Part shown: piece by piece, positions 27,610 through 39,540 of the stretch
How the letters are laid out: each line of letters begins with the position of its first letter
Position numbering within the stretch: position 1 is the first letter of the stretch
Origin: an uncultured Clostridia bacterium
GTDB lineage: Bacteria; Bacillota; Clostridia; UBA1212; UBA1255
Length of the DNA stretch: 47,638 nt
Reading direction: 5' to 3'
Assembly: GCA_947625435.1 (NCBI GenBank)
Contig: CANQOI010000010.1
Coordinates: 1 to 47,638 of the forward strand
Program-made: the position numbers and the translations under genes
The notes under the pieces: generated by a model
Told to the model about the DNA's origin: nothing
The model's input: only the letters and a program-made list of their open reading frames with translations
Databases searched by the model: none

Positions 27610-27617
27610 AATCAGAA

Positions 27618-27643
27618 TGCGGAGCAAAAAAGCATGCTCCGCA
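27618..27643. terminator. Hairpin between convergent M23 and lipoyl-carrier genes
   Basis: TGCGGAGCA (27618-27626) pairs perfectly with TGCTCCGCA (27635-27643) across 8 bases. It lies just after the M23 stop codon, in the 64 bases between two converging genes. No strong T run follows, so it may end transcripts weakly in either direction. Confidence 0.5.
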
Positions 27644-27673
27644 CCGTACATATGACTGCAAATATTATTTTAC

Positions 27674-28570
27674 TTATTTTACGGCGGCGAGCCACGGCTT
27701 TTCGGCAAATATGCATGTAAGCTCAAAGATCTTCGCCGCGATATCATCATTCTCCGCACATGCGCCCGGCACTGTCATTGTCATATTGCCGCCGCACAGC
27801 GTGATATCGGCACACGCAGCATCATTGCATGAGCCCGACGAGATATACCTGCTCTCAATTATATGGACCGAAATATCGCAAGGCACGGCGCCCGCATAAC
27901 AGACCGCCTTTCGGAACGCATTCCTCAGCGTCTGCTCCGCGCAGGAAACAGACGTGCTGTCAGAGCCTGAAGTAAATATATCAACCGTGCCGCTGAACAT
28001 GTATACAGTGCCGCTCTTTTCCCTGTATGAAAGCACATCGCGCTCTATTATGAGTTCCTCGGGGCCCGTGGGCGTGATATCCGAAAGCTTAATGCCGCGT
28101 TCCTCCGCGCGCATGCGGGCCCTGGGCGTTGAAAATATGCGCGCGCCCGCAACGCTCGGCGTTACGCTTTGTGTGACGCTTTGTGTGACGCTTGGCGTGA
28201 TATCTTGCGCCGCAGCGGGAACGGCAGGCGCCGCCGCAGCCGCGGTGATATCAGGCGTCGCCGCGGGTTTATCTTCCGGGCTTTCGGACATTTTACCCGC
28301 ACCGATGTCTATATCGTCAGCGGTATCGCCGTCCTCATCGCCCACATACGCTATTACGGACGCAACAGGCACGGTAGAGCCCTCCGGGCATACGATCTTA
28401 AGAAGCCGCCCCGAGCAGGAGGCGTCTATCGTTATGACGAGCTTATCCGTCTCCATTTCAAAAAGAGGCTCTCCCTGAGTTACCGTGTCTCCTTCTTTGC
28501 ATATCCATCTTGTTATAAAGCCTTCCGTCATCTGAAGCCCCTGCTTGGGCAGTATGATCTCATGTATCAA
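27674..28570 (-). CDS. Lipoyl-domain E2-like protein without a recognisable acyltransferase site
   Basis: A 298-residue protein. Residues 1-77 form a lipoyl domain with the target lysine in METDKLV (Lys43). An Ala/Pro/Thr linker follows with repeated TPSVTQSV-like units (125-140), then a peripheral-subunit-binding domain (147-181, STPRARMRAEERGIKLSDI). Only about 115 residues remain, compared with over 220 in a normal E2 catalytic domain. They look like its two ends with the middle removed, and the HxxxDG active-site motif is absent (MTMTVPGACAENDDIAAK at the corresponding place). The TTG start at 28570 has GGAGGTG seven bases upstream. It is the last gene of the operon, after both E1 subunits; no E3 gene is present. 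Confidence 0.78.
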   Translation of the reverse strand: MIHEIILPKQGLQMTEGFITRWICKEGDTVTQGEPLFEMETDKLVITIDASCSGRLLKIVCPEGSTVPVASVIAYVGDEDGDTADDIDIGAGKMSESPEDKPAATPDITAAAAAPAVPAAAQDITPSVTQSVTQSVTPSVAGARIFSTPRARMRAEERGIKLSDITPTGPEELIIERDVLSYREKSGTVYMFSGTVDIFTSGSDSTSVSCAEQTLRNAFRKAVCYAGAVPCDISVHIIESRYISSGSCNDAACADITLCGGNMTMTVPGACAENDDIAAKIFELTCIFAEKPWLAAVK

Positions 28571-28599
28571 TCTGATTCACCTCCGCGAGCACTGCGGCA

Positions 28600-29582
28600 T
28601 CACGCTCTGTAAAGAGCTTTTTTGCAGGCGTTGTAGATATCCGATTCCTGAGGTACCACGGCATTTTCAAGACCGAGATTGAAAGGAAGCGGGCACGCCT
28701 TTGCTCGAGCCGCAGAATGGGGCTGTCCAGATATTTAAAAGCCCTCTCCGAAAGCTCCGCCGCTATCTCTGCTCCCGCGCCTGCCGTACGGTGAGCCTCG
28801 TGCACCACCACCGCGCGTCCCGTTTTAGCGACCGAAGATGTCATCGTGTCCCAGTCCATGGGCACGAGCGTGCGCGGATCTATGACCTCGGCAGAGATAC
28901 CTTCAGCCGCAAGCTTATCCGCGACATTCAGGGATTTCTGCACGTATGTATGCGTCGCTATCAAGGTTATGTCCTTTCCTTCGCGTAAAATACGCGCTTT
29001 TCCGAAGGGCACCGTAAAATCGGGCGAATCGTCCACTTCGCATTTTGATGTGTAAAGCGCCTTGTGCTCGAAGAACATAACGGGATTATCGTCCCTTATT
29101 GCAGTTCTGAGAAGTCCCGCCGCATCGGAGGCGTCGGACGGCATTGCCACCTTAAGCCCCGGAAAATGCATGAAGATCGCCTCCATGGACTGCGAGTGCG
29201 TGGCGGCATTTCCGCGTCCCACGCCCTGCTGTCCGCGTATAACGAGAGGTATCACGGCTTTACCTCCGAAAATATACCGCGTTTTGGCGATCTGATTTAT
29301 TATCTGATCCATAGCCACCAGCGTAAAATCCATATACATGAGCTCTACTATAGGTCTCATACCGGCGCATGCGGCGCCGAGACCCGCTCCGCAGAATGCG
29401 GACTCCGAAATGGGAGTATTTCTCACGCGGTCAGGTCCGAATTCGTCTATGAGCCCTCTCGTACAGCCGAATATCCCTCCCTGCTCCGCTATGTCCTCAC
29501 CCATTATGAACACCCTGTCATCGCGCCTCATTTCCTCAGCTATTACATCCTTTATAGCCTGCGCGTAAGTCTTAATACTCAT
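28600..29582 (-). CDS. 2-oxoacid/acetoin dehydrogenase E1 beta subunit, with apparent frameshift
   Basis: About 326 residues once corrected. It pairs with the alpha subunit to form the thiamine-diphosphate E1 enzyme. Typical features are the N-terminal MGEDIAEQGGIFG (thiamine-site Glu), RGQQGVGRGNAATHSQSMEA, and the C-terminal transketolase domain with VIDPRTLVPMD and VVVHEAHRTAGAGAEIA. After LDSPILRL the frame as read continues with unrelated residues to a stop at 28560. Adding one G at the CTCGAG site (28704-28709) restores LGAK-ACPLPFNLGLENAVVP and a proper C-terminus ending at 28600. That leaves the next gene's ribosome site free. So there is either a real mutation or a sequence error. 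Confidence 0.85.
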
Positions 29583-29599
29583 AAATATGCATCCCCCAT

Positions 29600-30598
29600 T
29601 CAGTTAAAAACGTCTTCAAGAACGAGCGCCGGGTCAGGTTCGGGACTTGACAGTGCGAATTCAGCGGCGTGATCGGCGGCGGCCGCGGCCCTCGCCTCTA
29701 TTTCATCAAGCTCTTTATCCGATGCAAAGCCCTTCTCTGTCATATAGCTTCTCATAAACTTTATAGGACAGCGCTTTTTCCATTCCTCTACCTCTTCGCG
29801 CGTTCTGTAAACGCAGGGATCGCCCGTCCAGTGTCCGAGCCAGCGGTATGTCTTGAATTCGAGGAGCGTAGGCCCCTCTCCGTGTCTTGCCCTGTCAACG
29901 GCCTTTGACACCGCCTTGAAAATATCGGGCACCTTGTTTCCGTCCGCAGTAGCATGCGGCATATCATAGGCAGCGCCCCTTACCGAAATATCCTTTACCG
30001 ACGTGGACTGCCACTGGGGCACCGAGATACCGTAGCCGTTGTTCTCACATACGAATATCACGGGAAGCTTCCAGACAGAAGCCAGATTCATGGATTCGTG
30101 CACCACGCCCTGATTTGAGGCCCCGTCTCCGAAAAACGATACGGCCACCGGCATTTTACCCTGCTCGGCAAGATCCGCGTGCATCATTTTGGAAGCCAGC
30201 GCAGCTCCCACGGCTATGGGCACGCCTCCGCCCACTATCGCATTTGCACCCAGATTTCCCCGTTCGAGATCCGCTATGTGCATGCTGCCGCCTTTTCCCT
30301 TGCAATAGCCCGTAGCTTTACCCATGAGCTCTGCCATGGCCCTGTCAAGGCCTGCGCCTTTAGCTATGCAGTGACCGTGTCCTCTGTGCGTTGACGCTAT
30401 ATAATCGCTGTCATCCAGAAAAGAGCATACCGTTGCCGGTATAGCCTCCTCGCCTATGCAGAGGTGTACGGAACCGCGCAGCTTGTTTGCCTCAAAAAGG
30501 CTGAGAGCCTTTTCTTCAAAGCATCTTATATCATTCATGGTCTCATATATCTGTAAGGCTTTGTCCCTGTCAAGCCTCACTCCTTTAGTACCTGCCAT
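29600..30598 (-). CDS. 2-oxoacid/acetoin dehydrogenase E1 alpha subunit
   Basis: A 332-residue thiamine-diphosphate subunit. It has RGSVHLCIGEEAIPATVCSF, HRGHGHCIAKG, GGSMHIADLERGNLGANAIVG (closer to acetoin dehydrogenase AcoA than to pyruvate dehydrogenase E1), the thiamine-binding GDGASNQG and ENNGYGISVP. The start at 30598 is chosen because GGAAGGAGAAG precedes it by seven bases; the frame open upstream to 30661 overlaps the previous gene. It lies 25 bases after the SucD-like gene and 17 before E1 beta. Substrate preference (acetoin, pyruvate or another 2-oxoacid) needs experiment; the AcoA-like segment and acetaldehyde-centred neighbours favour acetoin. Confidence 0.88.
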   Translation of the reverse strand: MAGTKGVRLDRDKALQIYETMNDIRCFEEKALSLFEANKLRGSVHLCIGEEAIPATVCSFLDDSDYIASTHRGHGHCIAKGAGLDRAMAELMGKATGYCKGKGGSMHIADLERGNLGANAIVGGGVPIAVGAALASKMMHADLAEQGKMPVAVSFFGDGASNQGVVHESMNLASVWKLPVIFVCENNGYGISVPQWQSTSVKDISVRGAAYDMPHATADGNKVPDIFKAVSKAVDRARHGEGPTLLEFKTYRWLGHWTGDPCVYRTREEVEEWKKRCPIKFMRSYMTEKGFASDKELDEIEARAAAAADHAAEFALSSPEPDPALVLEDVFN

Positions 30599-30623
30599 TT
30601 TGAATCTTCTCCTTCCGTAAGCC

Positions 30624-31502
30624 TCACTCCGATAAGAGCTGCTTCTTAACGCACGAAACAATATCTGCCGTGCTGTCTGCTATAATGACACCGGCTTCCG
30701 ACAGCGCTCTGATCTTTGAATCGGCGCTTCCCGTACCGTCCGCCGATACTATGGCGCCGGCATGCCCCATGGAACGTCCCTTTGGAGCATTTTTACCGGC
30801 AATAAGAGCGATGACCGGCTTTGTTATGCGTTTTTTTATGAGCACCGCCGCCAGTTCCTCCTCATTGCCGCCTATTTCACCTATCATTACGATCACTTTC
30901 GTTTCATCGTCCTCTTCAAACAGAGGTAAAATGTCCGAAAATGAGCTTCCCGCTATCATATCCCCGCCTATGCCCACGCATGTGGACTGACCTATACCGG
31001 CATTTGTGAGCATGAATACGGTTTCATAGCAGTTTGTGGCCGAGCGCGACATGAGCCCGACGCTGCCCGGCATAAATATCCTGTGAGCCATGAATCCTGC
31101 CTTTGACTTGCCCGGTGAAATGATACCGAATGAATTAGGGCCTATCACCCGCGTGTTTTTAAGGCGCGCGTAATGGTACACGCGCATCATGTCGTGAACC
31201 GGTACGTGTTCCGCTATCGTGATCACGAGCGGAATGCCCGCATCTATAGACTCAAGGGCGCCGCTCATCATGTGCGCCGCAGGCACGAATATGACAGAGG
31301 CATTTGCGCCTGTCTTTTCCGCGGCCTCGCGCACTGTATTGAACACCGGTACTCCGAGCACCTCCATGCCGCCCTTTCCGGGCGTTACGCCCGCCACGAC
31401 ATGCGTTCCGTATTCAAGCATCTGCTCGGTGTGAAATGTGCCCTCTCTTCCGGTTATACCCTGTACTATGAGGCGTGTGTTCTTATCGATCAATATGCTC
31501 AT
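30624..31502 (-). CDS. ADP-forming acyl-CoA ligase alpha subunit (SucD-like)
   Basis: A 292-residue subunit that binds CoA and carries the phospho-histidine. The Rossmann CoA-binding part has GITGREGTFHTEQMLEYG and GVTPGKGG. The ligase part has GQSTCVGIGGDMIAGSSFSD and MIGEIGGNEEE, and the phosphorylated His247 lies in GRSMGHAGAIV. The phosphate/acyl-site loop reads MSRSATNCYE where E. coli SucD has a Ser-Gly-Thr, hinting at a different acid. The start has GGAGG nine bases upstream and overlaps the SucC-like gene by 20 bases. Next to a CoA-acylating aldehyde dehydrogenase it would convert an acyl-CoA to the free acid with ATP formation. Confidence 0.85.
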   Translation of the reverse strand: MSILIDKNTRLIVQGITGREGTFHTEQMLEYGTHVVAGVTPGKGGMEVLGVPVFNTVREAAEKTGANASVIFVPAAHMMSGALESIDAGIPLVITIAEHVPVHDMMRVYHYARLKNTRVIGPNSFGIISPGKSKAGFMAHRIFMPGSVGLMSRSATNCYETVFMLTNAGIGQSTCVGIGGDMIAGSSFSDILPLFEEDDETKVIVMIGEIGGNEEELAAVLIKKRITKPVIALIAGKNAPKGRSMGHAGAIVSADGTGSADSKIRALSEAGVIIADSTADIVSCVKKQLLSE

Positions 31503-32712
31503 ATGATGCCGCCTCCTCTTTAAGCTTTGCGACTCCTTCGATCAGTCCGTCTGCGTATGCGACTCCCGGTATGCCCGATATGATATCAAGGCCTTTTGCC
31601 TTATTAGTGCCCTCAAAACGTATTATCACCGGTTTTGTGAGGCGCCCGCTTTCATAGGCCAGCTTTATGCCGCCTGCCACCTCGTCGCATCTCGTTATGC
31701 CGCCGAATATATTGATAAAGAGAAAATGCGTATCTTCGTCGCTCAATATGATGCGCACTGCCTCTTTAATACGCTCCGCGGTAGCGCCGCCGCCCAGATC
31801 GAGAACGGCGCGCACATAGATATGCTCCCGTGTGATCATATCTATGCAGCTCATGAGCATTCCGGAGCCGTTTGACATTACGGCTATGTCTCCGTTGCCG
31901 TCACAGGGAATATATAAAAAGTTAAACAGCTCGGCCTCCTTTGTAAGAGGGTGCCTGGGCATAGAAGATGCGTAATCCGCAAGCCACGCCTGGCGTTTAA
32001 CCGCGGAATCGTCTATGCTCACCTTTCCGTCAAGCGCTATGAGACGCATACCGTTCTCAGCGCTTTCGTCCTTACAGAGAGCGAGAGGGTTTATCTCGCA
32101 CAGCATGCAGTCATTCTTAATAAAAAGTCCGTACAGTGCATTCAGTATATCCCCCAATTCCTTTTGGAATGTTTTCGGGATATCAGGATATCTTTCAGAT
32201 ATTTTACCCGCGATATATGACGTATGATACGGGGCAACGCCCCCCTTCATATCGGCGGAAAGCGGCATGACGGGCGTTTTTAATATATTTTCGGGCGTAC
32301 TTTTTGCGGTTTCTTCTATATCCACGCCGCCCGACGGTGAAAATATTATCATTGGACACTTTGTTATGCGGTCGAGCATCACGGAAAGGTAAAATTCTCT
32401 CATCACTTCGGCCTTGCCCACTATCATGATGCTGCGCACCTTGTGTCCTTTAATGTCCATGCCAATTATATCATGCGCACATTTTACGAGCTCGCCGTCA
32501 TTTTCGGCGAAGCGTATGCCTCCCGCCTTGCCTCTTCCGCCTGTCATGACCTGAGCCTTGACAACTGCCGGATAGCCGATCCTGCGGGCGGCTTCGATAA
32601 GTATGCCGTCTCCTTTTTCCTCCAGCTCCCGGGCTGTTATATGTACGAAGCTCTGTACAGGCACCCCGCCGCTTTCGAAAAGCTCTTTTGCTTTGTATTC
32701 CATCAGATCCAT
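31483..32712 (-). CDS. ADP-forming acyl-CoA ligase beta subunit (SucC-like)
   Basis: A 409-residue ATP-grasp subunit that partners the SucD-like protein. It shows MEYKAKELFESGGVPV at the start, the nucleotide loop VMTGGRGKAGGIRFA, IIFSPSGGVDIEE, EINPLAL, and the C-terminal LDLGGGATAERIKEAV and NIFGGITRCDEVA segments. Length and motifs are those of succinyl-CoA synthetase beta, but no other TCA-cycle gene is nearby and the operon is a sugar/aldehyde one, so acetyl-CoA, or a related acyl-CoA, may be the substrate (inference). Its ATG follows the aldehyde dehydrogenase stop codon directly (TAAATG). Confidence 0.87.
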   Translation of the reverse strand: MDLMEYKAKELFESGGVPVQSFVHITARELEEKGDGILIEAARRIGYPAVVKAQVMTGGRGKAGGIRFAENDGELVKCAHDIIGMDIKGHKVRSIMIVGKAEVMREFYLSVMLDRITKCPMIIFSPSGGVDIEETAKSTPENILKTPVMPLSADMKGGVAPYHTSYIAGKISERYPDIPKTFQKELGDILNALYGLFIKNDCMLCEINPLALCKDESAENGMRLIALDGKVSIDDSAVKRQAWLADYASSMPRHPLTKEAELFNFLYIPCDGNGDIAVMSNGSGMLMSCIDMITREHIYVRAVLDLGGGATAERIKEAVRIILSDEDTHFLFINIFGGITRCDEVAGGIKLAYESGRLTKPVIIRFEGTNKAKGLDIISGIPGVAYADGLIEGVAKLKEEAASYEHIDR

Positions 32713-34104
32713 TTACAAAATATCTCCTTCTGCCGCAAATATCTCATCGTCGGAGGGAGCCTTTGCTCTCGGTATGCTGTAGGCTATACGCGTTATGTTG
32801 AGGAGATGCTTGTAGCTGAAATTCTCCGAGATTGAATTGTTGCCCCATGAACCGCATCCCAGCGTCGTTGTGGGTGTAAGGCTGTTGAAGAAGCTGCCGC
32901 CGTTCATCGTGGAGCATATCTGATTTATGAGCACACGGCATACGGTTATATGTTCTGCGGCATATTCTATATGCTCGCGGCTGTTTGAGTGTATTGAAAC
33001 GGAATGTCCGCGGCCCTCCACATTCAGGTTCTGCTGTGCTATGCTTACGGCATCCTCCCATGTTTTGTATGAATACGTTGAAATGACAGGGCACATCTTC
33101 TCCTTTGAAAGAGCGTCCTCCCTGCCGCAGGCATCGGCCTTTACGAGTATGACCTTTGTATCGTTCGGCACGCTTATTCCTGCCTTCTCCGCCACCTTGA
33201 GAGCGCTCTGTCCCACAAGATCCTTGTTCATTACGAAAGCGCCCTTGTCATTTTTCGTAAACAGTGTGTTCCTGAGCTTTGAAACGTCCTCGGGCGCGTC
33301 CAGATACGCACAGCCGTTTTGTACAAAAATATCTATTATTCTGTCGTAATCCTCCTCGGGCAGTATTATCGTCTGCTCTCCGGAGCATATTATACCGTTA
33401 TCGAAGCGTCTGCCCTCTATTATTTTAGGAGCTGCTTCGCTGTAGTCTACGCCCCTGTCTATTATGCACTGCACGTTTCCGGCGCCCACGCCGTATGCGG
33501 GCTTCCCGGACGAATATGCGGCCTTTACCATTCCCATGCCGCCTGTTGCCACGACTACGTCGCAGGCGCTCATGAGCTCAGCGGAGAGCGCCGATGTGGG
33601 CTCGTCTATGATCTGTACGAGATCCGCGGGAGCCCCCAGCTTCTCTATTTCCGCCCTGAACATATCCGTCACTACTCTGCCGCATTTCTTCGCTCTCGGA
33701 TGCGGCGCTATTATGACGGCGTTTCTCCCTTTTATAGCGTACATCGCATTGCACATAGGCGTAACTATCGGATTTGTGCAGGGAGTTATGGCGGCCACGA
33801 CTCCCATGGGGCGCGCCACCTCGGTAATACACGTTTCACTGTCTCTGCTTATGATACCCACGGACTTTTTGTCCTTCAGGTAATTCCAGATTATTCTCGC
33901 TTTTCCTTTATTTTTGTTGACCTTGTCCTCGTACACTCCCATGCCCGACTCCTCGGCCGCCATCTTTGCAAGATCTTCCGCATTGTCGTACACGGCTTTT
34001 GCGATAGCCCTTACTATCCTGTCTACGCTTTCCTGCGTCGCGGTGCGTTCAAATTCCGCCTGTGCGGCTCTTGCCCTGCTTATAAGATCGGAAACAGTTT
34101 CCAT
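32713..34104 (-). CDS. CoA-acylating aldehyde dehydrogenase (EutE/SauS/SucD-type family)
   Basis: A 463-residue NAD(P)-dependent enzyme that converts an aldehyde and CoA to acyl-CoA, or the reverse. The catalytic Cys240 lies in RFDNGIICSGEQ, and the cofactor region has CTNPIVTPMCNAMYAIKGRN and VVATGGMGMVKAAYSSGKP. The lack of the glutamate used by hydrolytic aldehyde dehydrogenases, and GSWGNNSISENFSYKHLLN near the end, mark the acylating type. In this operon acetaldehyde from DeoC is the obvious substrate; sulfoacetaldehyde or succinic semialdehyde enzymes are close relatives and cannot be excluded. The ATG overlaps the stop of the FadR-type gene. Confidence 0.88.
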   Translation of the reverse strand: METVSDLISRARAAQAEFERTATQESVDRIVRAIAKAVYDNAEDLAKMAAEESGMGVYEDKVNKNKGKARIIWNYLKDKKSVGIISRDSETCITEVARPMGVVAAITPCTNPIVTPMCNAMYAIKGRNAVIIAPHPRAKKCGRVVTDMFRAEIEKLGAPADLVQIIDEPTSALSAELMSACDVVVATGGMGMVKAAYSSGKPAYGVGAGNVQCIIDRGVDYSEAAPKIIEGRRFDNGIICSGEQTIILPEEDYDRIIDIFVQNGCAYLDAPEDVSKLRNTLFTKNDKGAFVMNKDLVGQSALKVAEKAGISVPNDTKVILVKADACGREDALSKEKMCPVISTYSYKTWEDAVSIAQQNLNVEGRGHSVSIHSNSREHIEYAAEHITVCRVLINQICSTMNGGSFFNSLTPTTTLGCGSWGNNSISENFSYKHLLNITRIAYSIPRAKAPSDDEIFAAEGDIL

Positions 34105-34757
34105 TATAACGATCCTTCCTTCTTTAAAATATTTATTTTGGCTTTTTCAATATGGTCTTTCATTTCTTCCGCCGCTCTTTCGGCGTCTCCTGCTTCTATG
34201 GCGGCGGCTATCTTCTCGTGATCCGCAACGGTCTTTTCACCCTGTCCGCTTATCGACAGGGTGGCATACATTCCGGAATTGAGTATGTCGCAGCACTGCT
34301 CCAGTATCGTACACATCGCCCCGTTGCCCGCCGCTTTCGCAACAGCAAGGTGGAATGCCTCGTCGCCGCTCACTCCGTATTCGCCGGATCCGAGCTCATC
34401 CTTCATTTTACGGATGGATGAATATATCGCGCGCATGTTCTCTTCCTTCAGCGCGCCGCTGTTTTCCGCCGCAAGGCGGGCCGTTTCACATTCTATGACG
34501 CGCCTTACGTCCAGAAATTCCAGGTGCGTCCTGCTGCTCACGAGACTCACGTAATTTCCGCCTCCCTGAACGGAGCGCACGAAACCCCATGCAGAAAGTC
34601 TTTTGAGAGCCTCTCTGACCGTTGTGCGTGAAACGCCGAGCAATACCGCAAGATCCCTCTCGGGCGGCAGTTTGTCCCCGTCCACGTAGCCGTTTTCATT
34701 TATCATTTTTATAACTGAGGAGGCCGTGCTCTCAGCCATGGTCTCTCTGATACTCAC
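34104..34757 (-). CDS. GntR family regulator, FadR/FCD subfamily
   Basis: A 217-residue transcription factor. The N-terminal winged helix has KLPPERDLAVLLGVSRTTVREALKRLS (about residues 29-55, quoted in part: LGVSRTTVREALKRL). The C-terminal FCD domain (about 80-212) has metal/ligand residues in DEAFHLAVAKAAGN and DHEKIAAAIEAGD. Such proteins usually sense small acids or sugars. The gene lies inside the catabolic operon and overlaps its neighbours on both sides by a few bases, so it is made with them. The TTGGTATTACCAA site at the operon promoter matches the TGGT-N3-ACCA pattern of this subfamily and is its likely target. Confidence 0.9.
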   Translation of the reverse strand: MSIRETMAESTASSVIKMINENGYVDGDKLPPERDLAVLLGVSRTTVREALKRLSAWGFVRSVQGGGNYVSLVSSRTHLEFLDVRRVIECETARLAAENSGALKEENMRAIYSSIRKMKDELGSGEYGVSGDEAFHLAVAKAAGNGAMCTILEQCCDILNSGMYATLSISGQGEKTVADHEKIAAAIEAGDAERAAEEMKDHIEKAKINILKKEGSL

Positions 34758-35809
34758 TTATTTATCCTCACCATCGCTTTGATCCTCGTGCCGCCGGTCT
34801 CATGTGCGTGCGCAAAAAATTCCGGCACATCCTCAAGCTCTATCCTCTGCGTTATCATACCGTCAACGGGAAGACCCTTCGCAAGATATGAAGCCGCCTC
34901 GGGAACGAGCCCGAATTCACCCATGACTCCCTTTACCGTGAGCTCTTTGGACACGAGCGTATCCACGGCGAATCCGTCAAGCGTTCTCTCGTAAAATGCA
35001 GGCATCGCCACTGTGCCGCGCTTTGCGGCTATGTTCATGGCTTCGTTTACTGTGTCCGCGCCGCCCGAGGATTCTATTACGAGATCGGCGCCCCGCGAGC
35101 CTGTTATCTCACGCACTCTGCGCACCGCATCCTCTTTTGTTGAATTTATTACGTGCGTAGCGCCGCACTGCAGCGCGGCATTAAGCTTAAAATCCTTTCT
35201 TCCTATCACTATTACGTTCCGCGCGCGCTTTATGCCGGCCAGAGCCGCGGCTCCCAGCGCTATCGCTCCGGTGCCTATGACCGCTACTGTTGAATTTTCT
35301 GTTATATCATACTTTTTGACCGCTCCCAGTGCTATTGAAAGAGGCTCGGCAAGCGCCGCGTGCTCAAGGCTCACGTTGTCCGAAATATGATATGTATGGC
35401 ACTCGGGCATATACATATATTCCGCGTAGCAGCCGTCCCAGCAATTGATCGTTCCCACCGATCTTATATCGGTGCATTCAAAACGGCGCCCGCTCCTGCA
35501 CATTTCACACTCTCCGCACGATACTCCGTTGTCCGTTATAACGCGGTCGCCCTTTTTAAAATTCTTTACGGCGCTCCCCGTCTCCTCCACTGTTCCGGAC
35601 CATTCGTGCCCTATGCGGCACGGATATTTTATCTCTCCGCTCTTTACGAAGCTGCTGTTTCCCGTATATATCGCTATATCCGTTGCGCATATACCCGTCC
35701 ATTCTACCTTTACGAGCACCTCATCATCTTTTAACGGGCGCATCGCGACTCTTTCAAGCCTCATATCGTTCGGGCCGTATACTGTTATCGCTTTCATTGT
35801 TCTGTTCAT
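34754..35809 (-). CDS. Zinc-dependent medium-chain alcohol/polyol dehydrogenase
   Basis: A 351-residue MDR-family oxidoreductase. The catalytic zinc ligands are Cys in TGICATD (near 40) and GHEWSG (near 68). The structural zinc lobe is CGECEMCRSGRRFEC (Cys near 97-111) and the NAD-binding loop is VIGTGAIALGAAA (near 173). It resembles sorbitol, threonine and butanediol dehydrogenases, so the substrate is open: butanediol to acetoin, acetaldehyde to ethanol, or a sugar alcohol would all fit the operon. It overlaps the FadR-type gene by four bases (ATGA). A rather distant AGAGGTGG serves the ATG at 35809. Confidence 0.88.
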   Translation of the reverse strand: MNRTMKAITVYGPNDMRLERVAMRPLKDDEVLVKVEWTGICATDIAIYTGNSSFVKSGEIKYPCRIGHEWSGTVEETGSAVKNFKKGDRVITDNGVSCGECEMCRSGRRFECTDIRSVGTINCWDGCYAEYMYMPECHTYHISDNVSLEHAALAEPLSIALGAVKKYDITENSTVAVIGTGAIALGAAALAGIKRARNVIVIGRKDFKLNAALQCGATHVINSTKEDAVRRVREITGSRGADLVIESSGGADTVNEAMNIAAKRGTVAMPAFYERTLDGFAVDTLVSKELTVKGVMGEFGLVPEAASYLAKGLPVDGMITQRIELEDVPEFFAHAHETGGTRIKAMVRINK

Positions 35810-35827
35810 ATATCGGCTGCCACCTCT

Positions 35828-36769
35828 TCACTCATCTGTATTTTTTGCGAGAAGCTCTTCTATTTCGTTTCTGTAGGGCATCACGGGCGATGTGCCGTGT
35901 CTTGTTACTGATATCGCCGCAAGCGCGCAGGCGAATCTTGCGGCTTCCTCTGTGCCCTTGCCCTCTGCTATCGCGGCAGAAAAGCCTCCGCAGAATGCGT
36001 CTCCCGCTCCCGTCGTGTCGACGGCCTTTACTCTGAATCCGGGTATCATTCCCCTGTAATCCGCGGTTTTTGCGTATACTCCCGCCTTTCCGAGGGTTAT
36101 GATAACGTTCTTTACTCCCATTGCGAGCAGCTTATCTGCCGCCAGCTCCGCGCTGCTCTCATCCGTTATATGCACTCCCGTATAATATTCGGCTTCTGTT
36201 TCATTCGGTATTATGTAATCCGTGTTTTTCAGGACCGTTTCGCTCACGTCCCCTGCGGGGGCGGGGTTCAGCACATTTATTTTACCGTATTTTTTTGCGA
36301 GAAGTACCGCCTCCTCCAGCGGCTCGTCGCTCGTTTCGAGCTGCGTCAGCACTACGTCGCACGTTTTTATTTCTTCCTCGGCCCTGTCGACTTCTTCTCT
36401 CGTTATAGACCTGTTTGCGGCAGTCAGCACTATTATCCTGTTCTCGGCGGTTTCTGCGTTTATTTCTATTATGGCCGAGCCCGTCTGCCCGTTTTTCTGT
36501 GTGTATACGTATTTCTGCGACATGCCTTCCTTCTCGTAATGTGAAACGGCTATACGGCTCATGAAATCCTCGCCGAGCTTTGTTATCATTATCACTTCCG
36601 CGCCGGCGCGCTTTGCGGCGGTCGCCTGATTTGAGCCCTTGCCGCCCGGACCGAATTTTATGCTGTTTCCCAGCACTGTTTCTCCGTCAGCCGGAAAATG
36701 AGGTGTCATTACGGCTATGTCTGTTATAAATGATCCCATTACTACGATTTTGCCTTTTTTTTGCGCCAT
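35828..36769 (-). CDS. PfkB family sugar kinase, ribokinase/deoxyribokinase type
   Basis: A 313-residue kinase with the ribokinase signatures GPGGKGSNQA (near 40-50) and DTTGAGDAFCGGF (near 250), where the Asp is the catalytic base, and the anion-hole region between. The start at 36769 has AAAGGA nine bases upstream; an ATG three codons earlier touches that site. It stands between the mutarotase and the alcohol dehydrogenase and downstream of deoC. The combination mutarotase, kinase and DeoC matches known 2-deoxyribose catabolism, in which the kinase makes deoxyribose-5-phosphate. Ribose remains possible by sequence alone. Confidence 0.87.
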   Translation of the reverse strand: MAQKKGKIVVMGSFITDIAVMTPHFPADGETVLGNSIKFGPGGKGSNQATAAKRAGAEVIMITKLGEDFMSRIAVSHYEKEGMSQKYVYTQKNGQTGSAIIEINAETAENRIIVLTAANRSITREEVDRAEEEIKTCDVVLTQLETSDEPLEEAVLLAKKYGKINVLNPAPAGDVSETVLKNTDYIIPNETEAEYYTGVHITDESSAELAADKLLAMGVKNVIITLGKAGVYAKTADYRGMIPGFRVKAVDTTGAGDAFCGGFSAAIAEGKGTEEAARFACALAAISVTRHGTSPVMPYRNEIEELLAKNTDE

Positions 36770-36770
36770 A

Positions 36771-37775
36771 TCAGTCATTCCTTTCCGAATTTCTCCGCAA
36801 TATGATCATTTTCCATTTTTTTGTTTCTCCGGCCGGCACGGTGACGTCGGCGCCTCTTTTTTCTGCGTTTCCCGGCGTGTCATATGCGCCCGTACAGAAC
36901 TCGGCGGCCACGTTGTACATATTCTTGAACGCTCCGTTGTTCATCCATATGCCGAGATAGTCGGTGCCCTCGCATTTTACGCTTATGTCCCCGTACGTGA
37001 AATATCCCCGGTACGGCTCTTTTATGTAAAATTTATATGCGTTGCGCTCGCGGCCGCTCATGAGCAGCCGGCTGCCGTTCTGTATGATCAGGCCGGTGCC
37101 TTTTTCCATGCTACCCGCAATGCTATCAGCAATGCTCCCGGCGATGCACTCGCCATTGTCCTCATAGGAGTCCGTGCCGCGGTCAAAGAACATGAGCTCG
37201 CCTGTGTAAATGCCTTCGTCAAGCTTTACTCTTTCGTATATCTCAGCTCTTAACATCATGTGAGACGCCCATATGGCTTTAAGAGGTTTTGACGATGTGT
37301 TTTTTACTTCGTATTCGATCCGGATCCCGTTTGCACGCCTGTCTGCGGGTACCTTTGCTGCATTCCCGTATTCCCTGTACTCTGTATATTTTTTTCTGAA
37401 TATATAATCTCCGTACGGTGACTCGGCTTTTGTGCAGAGCGCCAAGCCGTCCGGGCCGTTTGTTATTTCGTATGTATGCTGCATCCTGCATACTTCGCCG
37501 TGGTCCGGATACGGGCGTTCCGGGCTCTCCCACGGATCGATCGTGGGAAACATATCGTCAAATGCGGAGCATTCGCTGTCTACGTAGCTGCCGCCGGGTG
37601 TAAGATCTATGTATCCTTTTCCCGGCGCCTGCGCGAGCATTTCACGCTCGCCGCCGGGCGAGCGCAGCTTAAGGGACACCATTTTACCGCCGTCCGGTAA
37701 TATGATGCACTTCATATTGTCCGTTACGATATGTATCCCCTGTTTGTTTTTATACTCTGTATTTGTTATATACAT
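36771..37775 (-). CDS. Aldose 1-epimerase-like mutarotase
   Basis: A 334-residue beta-sandwich protein of the galactose-mutarotase superfamily that interconverts sugar anomers before phosphorylation. Visible segments are CIILPDGGKMVSLKLRSPGG at the start, a Phe/Asp/Pro-rich segment FDDMFPTIDPWESPERPYPD that includes a likely catalytic His (DHGEVCRMQH), and WMNNGAFKNMYNVAAEFCTG near the end. The best start is the ATG at 37775 inside the end of deoC (26-base overlap); a GTG lies at 37787. Short Ile-Ala-Gly-Ser repeats (AGSIADSIAGSMEKG) occur near 230. Deoxyribose is the probable substrate from context. Confidence 0.78.
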   Translation of the reverse strand: MYITNTEYKNKQGIHIVTDNMKCIILPDGGKMVSLKLRSPGGEREMLAQAPGKGYIDLTPGGSYVDSECSAFDDMFPTIDPWESPERPYPDHGEVCRMQHTYEITNGPDGLALCTKAESPYGDYIFRKKYTEYREYGNAAKVPADRRANGIRIEYEVKNTSSKPLKAIWASHMMLRAEIYERVKLDEGIYTGELMFFDRGTDSYEDNGECIAGSIADSIAGSMEKGTGLIIQNGSRLLMSGRERNAYKFYIKEPYRGYFTYGDISVKCEGTDYLGIWMNNGAFKNMYNVAAEFCTGAYDTPGNAEKRGADVTVPAGETKKWKMIILRRNSERND

Positions 37776-38436
37776 TTTCAGGCGCACCCTCTATTATGTT
37801 TATTCCCGATGAGGTTCCGAGTCTATCTGCGCCGGCTTCTATCAATGCCGCAGCGTCGGCATATGTCCTTATGCCCGATGATGCTTTTACATGAGTTTTA
37901 CTGTGATCGGTTATGGTTTCATACATGAGTTTTACGTCCTCTGGAGTTGCCACGCCCTGTGACACGCCTGTGCATGTTTTTACGAAATGAGCTCCCGCCT
38001 CGCAAGCGAGCTTTGTGGCTGTCACTTTTTCGTCATCTGATATGAGTCCCGTTTCGATTATGACTTTTACCGTTTTGCCCTTGACTGCATCTACAACTGC
38101 CTTGATCTCATTCTTTACATAATCGTAAAGTCCGTCCTTCAAAGCGCCTACGTTTATCACCATGTCAAATTCATCGCAGCCGTTGTCATACGCTTCCTCC
38201 GCCTCCGCAACTTTTATTTTTGTTGTATTGGCTCCGAGAGGAAAACCTATTACCGTGCATACTTTTACGTCAGTGCCCTTAAGAAGGGCCTTTGCCAGCG
38301 GAACATTGTACGGATTTACGCAAACTGACGCAAATTTATATCTTGCCGCTTCAGTGCAGAGCCTTTCAATGTCCATTTTACGTGCGAACGGTTTCAGATT
38401 TGTGTGGTCTACATATTTGTTGATTTCGCTTTTCAT
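37750..38436 (-). CDS. deoC: Deoxyribose-phosphate aldolase
   Basis: A 228-residue class I aldolase that splits 2-deoxyribose-5-phosphate into acetaldehyde and glyceraldehyde-3-phosphate. The Schiff-base Lys153 is in HFVKTCTG, the proton-relay Lys184 in HVKASSGIR, and Asp91 in EFDMVINVG. The start follows CGGAGG. It is the first gene of the eleven-gene operon. No thymidine phosphorylase, cytidine deaminase or phosphopentomutase is nearby, so the operon seems aimed at free deoxyribose (with the kinase) rather than at nucleosides. Confidence 0.96.
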   Translation of the reverse strand: MKSEINKYVDHTNLKPFARKMDIERLCTEAARYKFASVCVNPYNVPLAKALLKGTDVKVCTVIGFPLGANTTKIKVAEAEEAYDNGCDEFDMVINVGALKDGLYDYVKNEIKAVVDAVKGKTVKVIIETGLISDDEKVTATKLACEAGAHFVKTCTGVSQGVATPEDVKLMYETITDHSKTHVKASSGIRTYADAAALIEAGADRLGTSSGINIIEGAPENVYNKYRV

Positions 38437-38655
38437 GATTTGCCTCCGAATGTTTTTATTTTCTGTGTTTTATGTTATTTTCTTGTTGTTTGTTGATTGT
38501 CGCACATTACTTGTTGTTTGTCGTTTGTTACTTGTCGTTTGTTACTCGTTATTCCTTGCTTGTTATTCATTGCTTTGCTCGTCATGTGTTATCGTTATTG
38601 TTTATTGGTTATTGGTTATTGGTCTTGTGCCTTCGATTTTGGTATTACCAATCAT
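38437..38655 (-). promoter_or_regulatory. A-rich 5' leader of the deoC operon with short tandem repeats
   Basis: From the inferred transcription start near 38655 to the deoC start the transcript would be about 215 bases long, rich in A and poor in G. It has repeated ATAAC/ACAAC words and little scope for secondary structure. On the plus strand there is a 14-bp perfect tandem repeat TGTCGTTTGTTACT (38519-38546) and three ATTGGT copies spaced seven bases apart (38604-38623). No coding frame or riboswitch was recognised. Confidence 0.55.
38639..38651. promoter_or_regulatory. FadR/PdhR-like operator TTGGTATTACCAA
   Basis: The perfect palindrome TTGGT-ATT-ACCAA matches the TGGT-N3-ACCA pattern bound by FadR-subfamily GntR proteins and lies about 4-16 bases after the inferred transcription start. 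The operon encodes such a protein (34104-34757). A bound repressor would block early elongation. Confidence 0.7.
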
Positions 38656-38662
38656 ACTAAAC

Positions 38663-38691
38663 ATGATAGCATGAAATATATGCTCAGTCAA
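38663..38691 (-). promoter_or_regulatory. Promoter of the deoC operon
   Basis: Minus-strand TTGACT (38691-38686), a 17-base spacer and TATCAT (38668-38663). A second small inverted repeat, ATCAT-N7-ATGAT, overlaps the -10. Confidence 0.7.
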
Positions 38692-38737
38692 CACACATTT
38701 CTTGTATGCAAAAATTTTTTGTAAGCAAAAATTTTTT

Positions 38738-39540
38738 GCAGAAAAATTCTTCGGGACTCGGCTCTAAAAACCCGGATTCCCTGCTCGCAGCTTTGTCACC
38801 GTTTGTCACGGTTGTTTTTTTCTGCAATAAGCTTTTGTTTCTGCAGAAAAATTTTTTGGGACTCGGCTCTCAAAACCCGGATTCCCTGCTCGCAGCTTTG
38901 TCACTGTTTGTCACAAATATTTTTTCTGCAATAAGTTTTTGTCTTTGCAGAAAAATTTTTCGGGACTCGGCTCTTAATGTCCGGATTCCCTGCTCGCAGC
39001 TTTGTCACTGTTTGTAACGGTTGTTTTTTCTGCAATAAACTTTTGTTTGTGCAGAAAAATTCTTCGGGGCTCGGCTCTTAATGTCCGGATTCCCTGCTCG
39101 CAGCTTTGTCACCGTTTGTCACGGTTGTTTTTTTCTGCAATAAGCTTTTGTTTTGCAGAAAAATTTTTCGGGACTCGGCTCTCAAAACCCGGATTCCCTG
39201 CTCGCAGCTTTGTCATCGTTTGTCCCCGTTGTTTTTTCTGCAATAAATTTTTGTTTTTGCAGAAAAATTCTTCGGGGCTCGGCTCTCAAAGCACGGATTC
39301 CCTGCTCGCAGCTTTGTCACCGTTTGTCACGGTTGTTTTTTTCTGCAATAAATTTTTGTTTTTGCAGAAAAATTCTTCGGGACTCGGCTCTAAAAATCCG
39401 GATTCCCTGCTCGCAGCTTTGTCACTGTTTGTAACGGTTGTTTTTTCTGCAATAAACATTTGTCTTTGCAGAAAAATTCTCCGGGACTCGGATCCCGGGG
39501 CTCGGATTTCGGGGCTCGGATCTCAGAGCCCGGTTCTGAG
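38738..39540. repeat. Tandem array of about 7.5 units of 104-105 bp
   Basis: Units begin with GCAGAAAAATT at 38738, 38843, 38947, 39051, 39155, 39259, 39364 and 39468, a period of 104 or 105 bases. Each contains GGGACTCGGCTCT, CGGATTCCCTGCTCGCAGC, TTTGTCACCGTTTGTCACGG and a T-rich end TTTTTTCTGCA. The end of one unit and the start of the next form a hairpin (TTTTTCTGCA/TGCAGAAAAA). Copies differ at scattered positions. The last unit breaks down into three 14-bp repeats (CTCGGATCCCGGGG-like, 39486-39527). The array fills the space between the divergent deoC and cysK promoters. Protein-like frames across it are by-products of a repeat without stops. Confidence 0.92.

Follow-up and report, generated by a model that had tools for sequence, protein, structure and literature searches.

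A conserved eleven-gene clostridial operon that places deoxyribose-type genes beside a CoA-acylating aldehyde dehydrogenase, a SucCD-type ligase and E1 genes

Described systems closest to the locus

The pairing of a CoA-acylating aldehyde dehydrogenase (ALDH) with a SucCD-type ligase is increasingly recognized as a route to one ATP per aldehyde in anaerobes, as in the sulfo-TK variant and in HpfXYZ. HpfX and HpfYZ of Enterococcus gilvus are described as converting 3-sulfopropionaldehyde to 3-sulfopropionate with formation of ATP (PMC11489063). Here we analyze a contig of an uncultured Clostridia bacterium (CANQOI010000010.1; the whole stretch of 47,638 nt is termed the window and its source genome G000), on which genes for such a pair lie in an eleven-gene operon together with deoC, encoding deoxyribose-phosphate aldolase, and with genes for E1 alpha, E1 beta and a lipoyl protein. 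An earlier, sequence-only reading had proposed that this operon turns 2-deoxyribose, and perhaps acetoin, into acetate plus ATP. We observed that the operon is conserved as a unit, and we tentatively favor a two-unit fermentation operon in which the acid made by the back unit is dicarboxylic rather than acetate.

The locus resembles HpfX-HpfYZ in that a CoA-acylating ALDH and an ADP-forming SucCD-type ligase are encoded in one cluster, which in E. gilvus serves the formation of an acid and ATP from an anionic aldehyde. By contrast, HpfZ has His and HpfY has GIN where the ligase of the window has Tyr and GIT, and the gene list in the Figure 1 legend of PMC11489063 contains no E1, E2 or deoC. 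SqwD-SqwKL of the sulfo-TK variant and SauS-SauCD are described with the same reaction logic and the same gene families (PMC12890257, PMC11659671); Sqw was compared by description, and the sequence comparison covered the SauS/SauCD types only. SauS equivalogs share a Lys/Ser pocket with the ALDH of the window, but this ALDH falls below the SauS cut-off and the ligase loops are unlike those of SauCD. The best solved relative of the ALDH, the Clostridium kluyveri succinyl-CoA reductase CkSucD (8cei), is 53% identical to it over the alignment and has the same residues at the distal carboxylate. CkSucD operates in the reducing direction and, to our knowledge, is not accompanied by a SucCD ligase, an E1 or deoC. 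The front genes, a kinase, an aldolase and a mutarotase in one operon, are reminiscent of the DeoK-DeoC pathway as given in PMC6365646, but the classical pathway has no counterpart of the SucCD, E1 and E2 genes. Acetoin dehydrogenase (AcoABCL) likewise combines E1 alpha/beta with a lipoyl E2. The E1 alpha of the window is 45% identical to a protein, taken here to be AcoA, whose gene lies next to that of a LuxR regulator on a Klebsiella plasmid, but the window protein falls into its own clade, and the operon has no E3 and an E2 without an acyltransferase.

We regard the arrangement as a variant of the ALDH and SucCD-type ligase logic of which we found no prior description in the open-access literature searched; most subscription papers lie outside that literature, and to this extent the earlier statement that no operon with the full set is described holds. 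The literature searched also contained no such operon for sugar-linked E1 proteins. The ALDH-ligase idea would gain in breadth from a recurrent, non-sulfonate-like version that is tied to E1 proteins and, in some lineages, also to the degradation of deoxyribose; such a version would point to an unrecognized acid product of these Clostridia.

The operon and its conservation

Eleven ORFs, all on the minus strand, fill positions 27674-38436 (Table 1), with spacings from deoC to the last gene of -38, -8, 18, -4, -1, 0, -20, -38, 17 and -11 bases. Families were assigned by NCBIfam and Pfam scans of the operon proteins, with bit scores compared to model cut-offs. These scans bear out the families named in the sequence-only reading; the mutarotase is borne out by its predicted fold. 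All eleven genes recur in identical order in G001, a genome of the same genus, and in G030, from another family of the same order, so that its arrangement is not due to chance. The gene set is also rare: matches to SucC at E<=1e-60 were confined to 4 of the 31 genomes examined in the order, and matches to a SucD profile to 6 of 391 in the class (E<=1e-130) and 3 of 398 in the phylum (E<=1e-140), the source genome included in both. Rarity and identical order together indicate a real, selected operon; the eleven genes form one conserved unit, as had been proposed.

Table 1. Operon genes and flanking signals, listed from the presumed 5' end of the operon
Feature	Position	Strand	Basis
Promoter-like site TTGACT-17-TATCAT, TG before second hexamer; precedes deoC	38663-38691	-	Consensus scan, 10/12
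deoC, deoxyribose-phosphate aldolase (class I)	37750..38436	-	TIGR00126, 265 bits (cut-off 117); PDB DERA matches; alignment
Mutarotase-like protein (galactose mutarotase/aldose 1-epimerase fold)	36771..37787	-	AlphaFold model and Foldseek
Ribokinase-family sugar kinase	35828..36778	-	TIGR02152, 323 bits (cut-off 300); alignment
Zinc medium-chain alcohol dehydrogenase	34754..35809	-	PF08240/PF00107
GntR/FCD (FadR-type) regulator	34104..34757	-	PF00392, PF07729
CoA-acylating ALDH, CkSucD/SauS branch, Lys/Ser pocket	32713..34104	-	Aldedh (Pfam); 8cei, 523 bits; residues
SucC-like ADP-forming acid-CoA ligase, ATP-grasp subunit (GITRCD loop)	31483..32712	-	PF08442; closest PDB 3ufx; alignment
SucD-like ligase subunit, SRSATNCYE motif, active-site His in SMGHAGAI	30624..31502	-	TIGR01019; alignments
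E1 alpha, ThDP-dependent 2-oxoacid/ketol dehydrogenase	29600..30661	-	PF00676; TIGR03182; tree
E1 beta	28560..29582	-	NF006667, 343 bits (cut-off 321); frame comparison
E2 with no intact catalytic domain: lipoyl (3-75) and E3-binding (145-180) domains, decayed acyltransferase remnant without HxxxDG	27674..28570	-	Pfam Biotin_lipoyl and E3_binding; four-genome alignment; motif check and comparison with full E2
Terminator-like stem, 11 pairs; 3' of last gene	27616-27645	-	Consensus scan

The back unit, a module built around ALDH, SucC and SucD, also occurs in other settings. In L131 the order is GntR-ALDH-SucC-SucD-E1a-E1b-lactonase-like-ZnADH-E2-E3, and in L132 it is TRAP-ALDH-SucC-SucD-LarA-ZnADH-GntR (TRAP genes partly assigned by eye); no deoC lies by the back unit in the 20 kb examined at each locus, or within the stretches examined of L045 and G007. 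The module of G007, ALDH-SucC-SucD-E1a-E1b-lipoyl protein-LarA, is on a contig that ends upstream of the ALDH, and the sole deoC match of this genome sits on another contig. L049 has sugar-transporter-like genes (assigned by eye), a DUF4432 mutarotase, a kinase and a DeoC-like protein (38%), followed by ALDH-SucC-SucD-E1a-E1b-E2-E3-LarA and, further along, a lipoate-ligase-like gene (by eye). Since the back unit is found without deoC at some loci and with it at others, it is a recurrent cassette to which deoxyribose genes are joined in some lineages. The neighborhood comparison suggested in the earlier reading thus recovers the full operon in two related genomes, but in L131 and L132 only a back unit without deoC. 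The presence of deoC as a marker of the module was rejected, as deoC occurs in 25 of the 31 genomes of the order.

Among the best 80 of 582 in a scan of named genomes, six loci have a SucD identity of at least 73% and the others of at most 60%. Two genomes matched by the SucD profile, G136 and G469, contain relatives that adjoin ferredoxin-oxidoreductase-like genes, not the module, and in G631 SucC and SucD stand alone on a 3.2 kb contig. SucCD relatives with a SucD identity of 64-66% adjoin 2-oxoacid:ferredoxin oxidoreductase-like genes in L133 (8219-14308) and L135 (5616-10176), and a malic-enzyme-like gene is also near in L133 (all by eye). A contig labeled Planctomycetaceae (L047, 8859-12125) carries a SucD 75% identical to that of the window and a LarA-like gene; it is either mis-binned or transferred. 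In two lineages a metallo-beta-lactamase-fold protein, which we take to resemble the UlaG lactonase, adjoins the module (L032 2195-2953 and L131 12846-13667; 38% identity).

The acid product of the back unit

In CkSucD, which outscores the best AdhE as a relative of the ALDH (523 against 324 bits), Lys70 and Ser243 are reported to bind the distal carboxylate, with activity at <=2% for most of the other CoA esters tried (PMC10249356). The ALDH of the window has equivalents of Lys70, Ser243 and the catalytic Cys242 and His364, with Ser for Thr365, and its residues are thus those predicted for a CkSucD-type succinate semialdehyde dehydrogenase. The Lys/Ser pair is present in 8/8 module ALDHs, a count that covers all module loci whose stretch includes an ALDH. 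Two equivalogs of SauS, with scores of 805 and 811 bits, have the pair as well, as do Caballeronia and Shinella proteins. By contrast, five AdhE or acetaldehyde dehydrogenases have Ala/Ala at these positions (6tqh, 13he, 3my7, 7dag and 5j78; the residues of 13he, 3my7, 7dag and the acetaldehyde dehydrogenase 5j78 were read by eye from printed alignments). An E. gilvus ALDH adjoining genes annotated as phosphate acyltransferase and butyrate kinase has Met/Ala. Where an acetylating acetaldehyde dehydrogenase would be expected to have small neutral residues, the window has Lys and Ser, and the ALDH stays below the cut-offs of TIGR02518 (392 bits, cut-off 620) and of a further acetaldehyde dehydrogenase model (467 bits, cut-off 951). 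Judged by its residues, the Lys/Ser pocket is the main evidence against acetaldehyde as the substrate of the ALDH, and a dicarboxylic semialdehyde appears the better guess. A Caballeronia plasmid ALDH with 53% identity (L136 11956-13350) stands alone among insertion sequence elements and an integrase.

The carboxylate of succinate that is distal in pig succinyl-CoA synthetase (C4) is described as held by a Tyr and by the backbone of a GIV loop, which are replaced by His in HpfZ and by GIN in HpfY (PMC11489063). We placed the Tyr in the motif SRSGTLTY through the S155-H160 spacing stated for HpfZ. Tyr is kept (SRSATNCYE) and the loop reads GIT in 9/9 module loci aligned, an alignment that left out L044 (partial SucC), L046 (SucD only) and L134. 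The loop is also GIT in 3ufx, presumably the succinyl-CoA synthetase of Thermus, whereas SauCD-type subunits lack both Tyr and GIT and have SRSGSLGT and GAF instead. The SucD subunit exceeds the TIGR01019 cut-off (393 against 353 bits) and has the distal-carboxylate Tyr and the active-site His of an alpha subunit. The ALDH pocket and the ligase residues therefore agree on a dicarboxylate-type acyl group, and the latter argue against an ADP-forming acetate-CoA ligase activity. Acetate kinase is encoded in 29 of the order's 31 genomes, and the four that carry the module, G000 among them, all have it. Acetate formation thus does not require the ligase, and harvesting ATP without Pta-AckA, as had been suggested, need not be invoked (Pta was not searched for).

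The gene set, its conservation, the pocket residues and the missing E2 domain are observed, and from these we infer all reactions and the substrate of the operon. In the dicarboxylic pathway that we tentatively favor, the ALDH would convert an aldehyde, NAD and CoA to an acyl-CoA, from which the SucCD-type ligase would release the free acid with one ATP, and the zinc dehydrogenase probably feeds or drains the aldehyde/alcohol pool. The acyl group would carry a second acid group and would most likely be C4 (succinate- or malate-semialdehyde-like); as both pockets argue for such a group, a dicarboxylic end product seems likelier than acetate. The sequence from aldehyde through acyl-CoA to acid and ATP is supported by analogy with the characterized relatives SqwD-SqwKL and HpfX-HpfYZ, so this part of the earlier proposal is upheld. 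Acetate as the product is not: the pockets suggest in part what the sequence-only reading itself had named as grounds for giving it up, a dehydrogenase and ligase for another acid. A C4 hydroxyacid also fits LarAH6 (malate racemase family), which adjoins the module in G007, L132 and L049; LarA-like genes, identified by BLAST only, lie by the module in L047 and L045. LarAH6 as an obligate partner was rejected, as it is above cut-off in 13 of the 31 genomes, some of them without the module.

Several points weigh against a dicarboxylic product. No pathway known to us would turn deoxyribose into a dicarboxylic semialdehyde, and the back unit lies beside deoC in G000, G001 and G030 and beside the DeoC-like gene of L049, which argues for acetaldehyde. 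The pocket residues are sequence readings, and SucC does not reach the cut-offs of the succinate-CoA ligase beta models (TIGR01016, 309 against 376 bits; NF001913, 326 against 370 bits). The LarAH6 of G000 is away from the operon, by a GMP-synthase-like gene (by eye), and the LarAH6 search gave no match over the cut-off in G001 or G030. No second match resembling AdhE or acetaldehyde dehydrogenase was found in G000 at E<=1e-80, a threshold that weaker EutE-like matches would escape, and hence no alternative enzyme for acetaldehyde is seen. Finally, the E1-alpha tree does not tell whether AcoA or PdhA is the nearer relative, and a frame-shift in E1 beta (see below) would, if real, disable the E1 branch in the source strain.

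The alternative that survives best, although we consider it unlikely, is that acetaldehyde from DeoC, perhaps with some from acetoin cleavage, is oxidized to acetyl-CoA and yields acetate and ATP through the SucCD-type ligase. Acetaldehyde stays in play because deoC adjoins: deoC, kinase and mutarotase are directly upstream in three genomes, a DeoC-like gene precedes the module in L049 as well, and the operon copy is the sole deoC match of G000, where no other AdhE-like protein was found at the above threshold. The Lys/Ser pocket of all module ALDHs, set against Ala/Ala in the acetaldehyde enzymes, could be reconciled with acetate if the cassette had come to serve acetaldehyde with its ancestral residues retained. 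Such a history would also have to accommodate the succinate-type ligase residues, the scores under both acetaldehyde dehydrogenase cut-offs, the acetate kinase of the genome and the modules without deoC at other loci.

A sulfonate pathway, with the ALDH and ligase acting on sulfoacetaldehyde or a similar sulfo-aldehyde as in SqwD-SqwKL or SauS-SauCD, seems improbable. It would account for the pocket shared with SauS and for the ALDH-SucC-SucD order, which recurs in the SauS loci of Rhodococcus and Azospirillum, but the ALDH scores 432 bits against a cut-off of 600 for the SauS model (NF047625), the SauD/SauC-type loops are unlike SRSATNCYE and GIT, and among the family matches of the operon proteins there is no sulfoglycolysis family except the SauS model itself. 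Little weight can likewise be given to a reverse run, in which the cell would spend ATP to activate an acid and dispose of electrons by reducing it to aldehyde and alcohol, for although this direction is described for SauCD-SauS of Bilophila in a review (PMC12890257), the HpfXYZ reactions are reported as reversible in vitro (PMC11489063) and a zinc alcohol dehydrogenase is at hand, the upstream sugar-cleaving genes and the E1 genes indicate oxidative flow and no acid importer is among the eleven genes.

The deoxyribose unit, the E1 branch and the operon flanks

Mutarotase, kinase and DeoC would, by their families, convert 2-deoxyribose and ATP via deoxyribose 5-phosphate to glyceraldehyde 3-phosphate and acetaldehyde, the latter released in the DeoC reaction; the deoxyribose kinase/aldolase front half proposed earlier is supported by these family matches. 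DeoC is a TIGR00126 member in which the catalytic Asp and two Lys are conserved, residues whose identities, like that of the phosphate-site SSG, we assume. The mutarotase-like protein is matched by no Pfam family, and sequence comparison with the PDB gave nothing meaningful (best E 0.59). Its AlphaFold model, built with three sequences (pLDDT 73, pTM 0.80), retrieved in Foldseek, at a TM of ~0.5, a chain of a chloroplast NDH-PSI supercomplex as its first match, most of the following ones being aldose 1-epimerases and galactose mutarotases. In the kinase, Ile replaces the Asn of E. coli ribokinase (GSINAD to GSFITD); in a comparison with ribokinases only, this residue is Ile in G000 and G001 and Val in L049 as against Asn in E. 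coli and Thermotoga maritima, the site being masked in G030. We take the Asn to contact the 2-OH, which would make its replacement a 2-deoxyribokinase-like change. A broken kinase gene in G030 was rejected, as the interruption is a run of N. The zinc alcohol dehydrogenase scored below cut-off for 22/22 NCBIfam models listed.

The E1 alpha likely starts near 30598 (M22) and scores below the pyruvate dehydrogenase E1 alpha cut-off (TIGR03182, 345 against 394 bits). In a tree that included plasmid-borne references, seven module loci form one clade (support 100/99), separate among AcoA-, PdhA- and otherwise labeled E1 proteins; the module clade is firm and its neighbors are not. The proposed use of acetoin is conceivable, but the tree gives it no preference. 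The best plasmid homologs of E1 alpha are 48-51% identical; the two opened are Hyphomicrobiales clusters with E1 beta and E2 by sugar transporters, one of which also carries E3. The E1 beta of the window matches that of G001, which is in frame, up to about residue 292 of 340, after which the conserved tail continues in another frame (shift region 28560-28710; stop of the tail's frame near 28600). The intact tail marks the shift as either a recent mutation or an error of assembly.

The last gene had been read as a lipoyl carrier. The lipoyl domain is there, but in place of a simple carrier the protein is an E2 with an E3-binding domain and a catalytic domain that has decayed. In G000, G001, G007 and G030 this short E2 is 272-315 aa long and conserves both the lipoyl lysine and the E3-binding region; HxxxDG was found in 0/4, and the protein of the window has no PF00198 match and lacks a recognizable E2 catalytic domain. 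By contrast, L044, L049 and L131 keep a full E2 (433-477 aa, with HxxxDG) and an E3. In the predicted structure (pLDDT 55) the lipoyl and E3-binding domains are the confident parts. The lipoyl arm would receive its acyl group from E1 alpha/beta. The eleven genes include no E3, and G000 encodes a full E2 (583 aa) of the pyruvate dehydrogenase (PDH) type and an E3 on another contig. Because the lipoyl protein has no acyltransferase, the E2/E3 of this separate PDH complex are probably borrowed for transfer to CoA and reoxidation. A precedent for two E1 proteins sharing one E2/E3 is the hybrid complex described in Corynebacterium (PMC7568260); our literature search for truncated E2 proteins returned this complex and no bacterial E2 without a catalytic domain. 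That four genomes, drawn from two families within a single order, retain the lipoyl and E3-binding domains of a textbook complex but have lost its acyltransferase is an anomaly open to testing. It is very improbable, in our view, that the E1 and acyltransferase-less lipoyl proteins form a new channel that passes the acyl group from the lipoyl arm directly to ALDH or ligase, bypassing E2 catalysis; if it existed, such a channel would tie ATP synthesis to the cleavage of a 2-oxoacid or ketol within a single assembly.

PF00198 is matched by its last third only in 16 of the 31 genomes of the order (open frames of 302-345 aa). A link of this partial family to the operon was rejected, as 0/13 loci scanned had an ORF like the operon genes. 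Stand-alone acyltransferase-like proteins of ~300-320 aa that match this last third, with DERICDG for the DHRVxDG of E2, are encoded at L028 8003-8941 (in G000), L029 8593-9492 and L030 8112-9077.

A single promoter had been proposed for the operon. A promoter-like site does precede deoC, but the window has no excess of such sites (11, against 13.8, sd 3.4, in shuffles). Terminator-like sites are in excess (23, against 14.6, sd 4.1). The presumed 5' leader of the operon consists of short imperfect repeats with units of 7, 14 and 21 bases (38507-38623). Between deoC and cysK lies an array of ~7 copies of a 104-base unit (38733-39491), and all eight matches of this unit in the draft genome fall inside the array.

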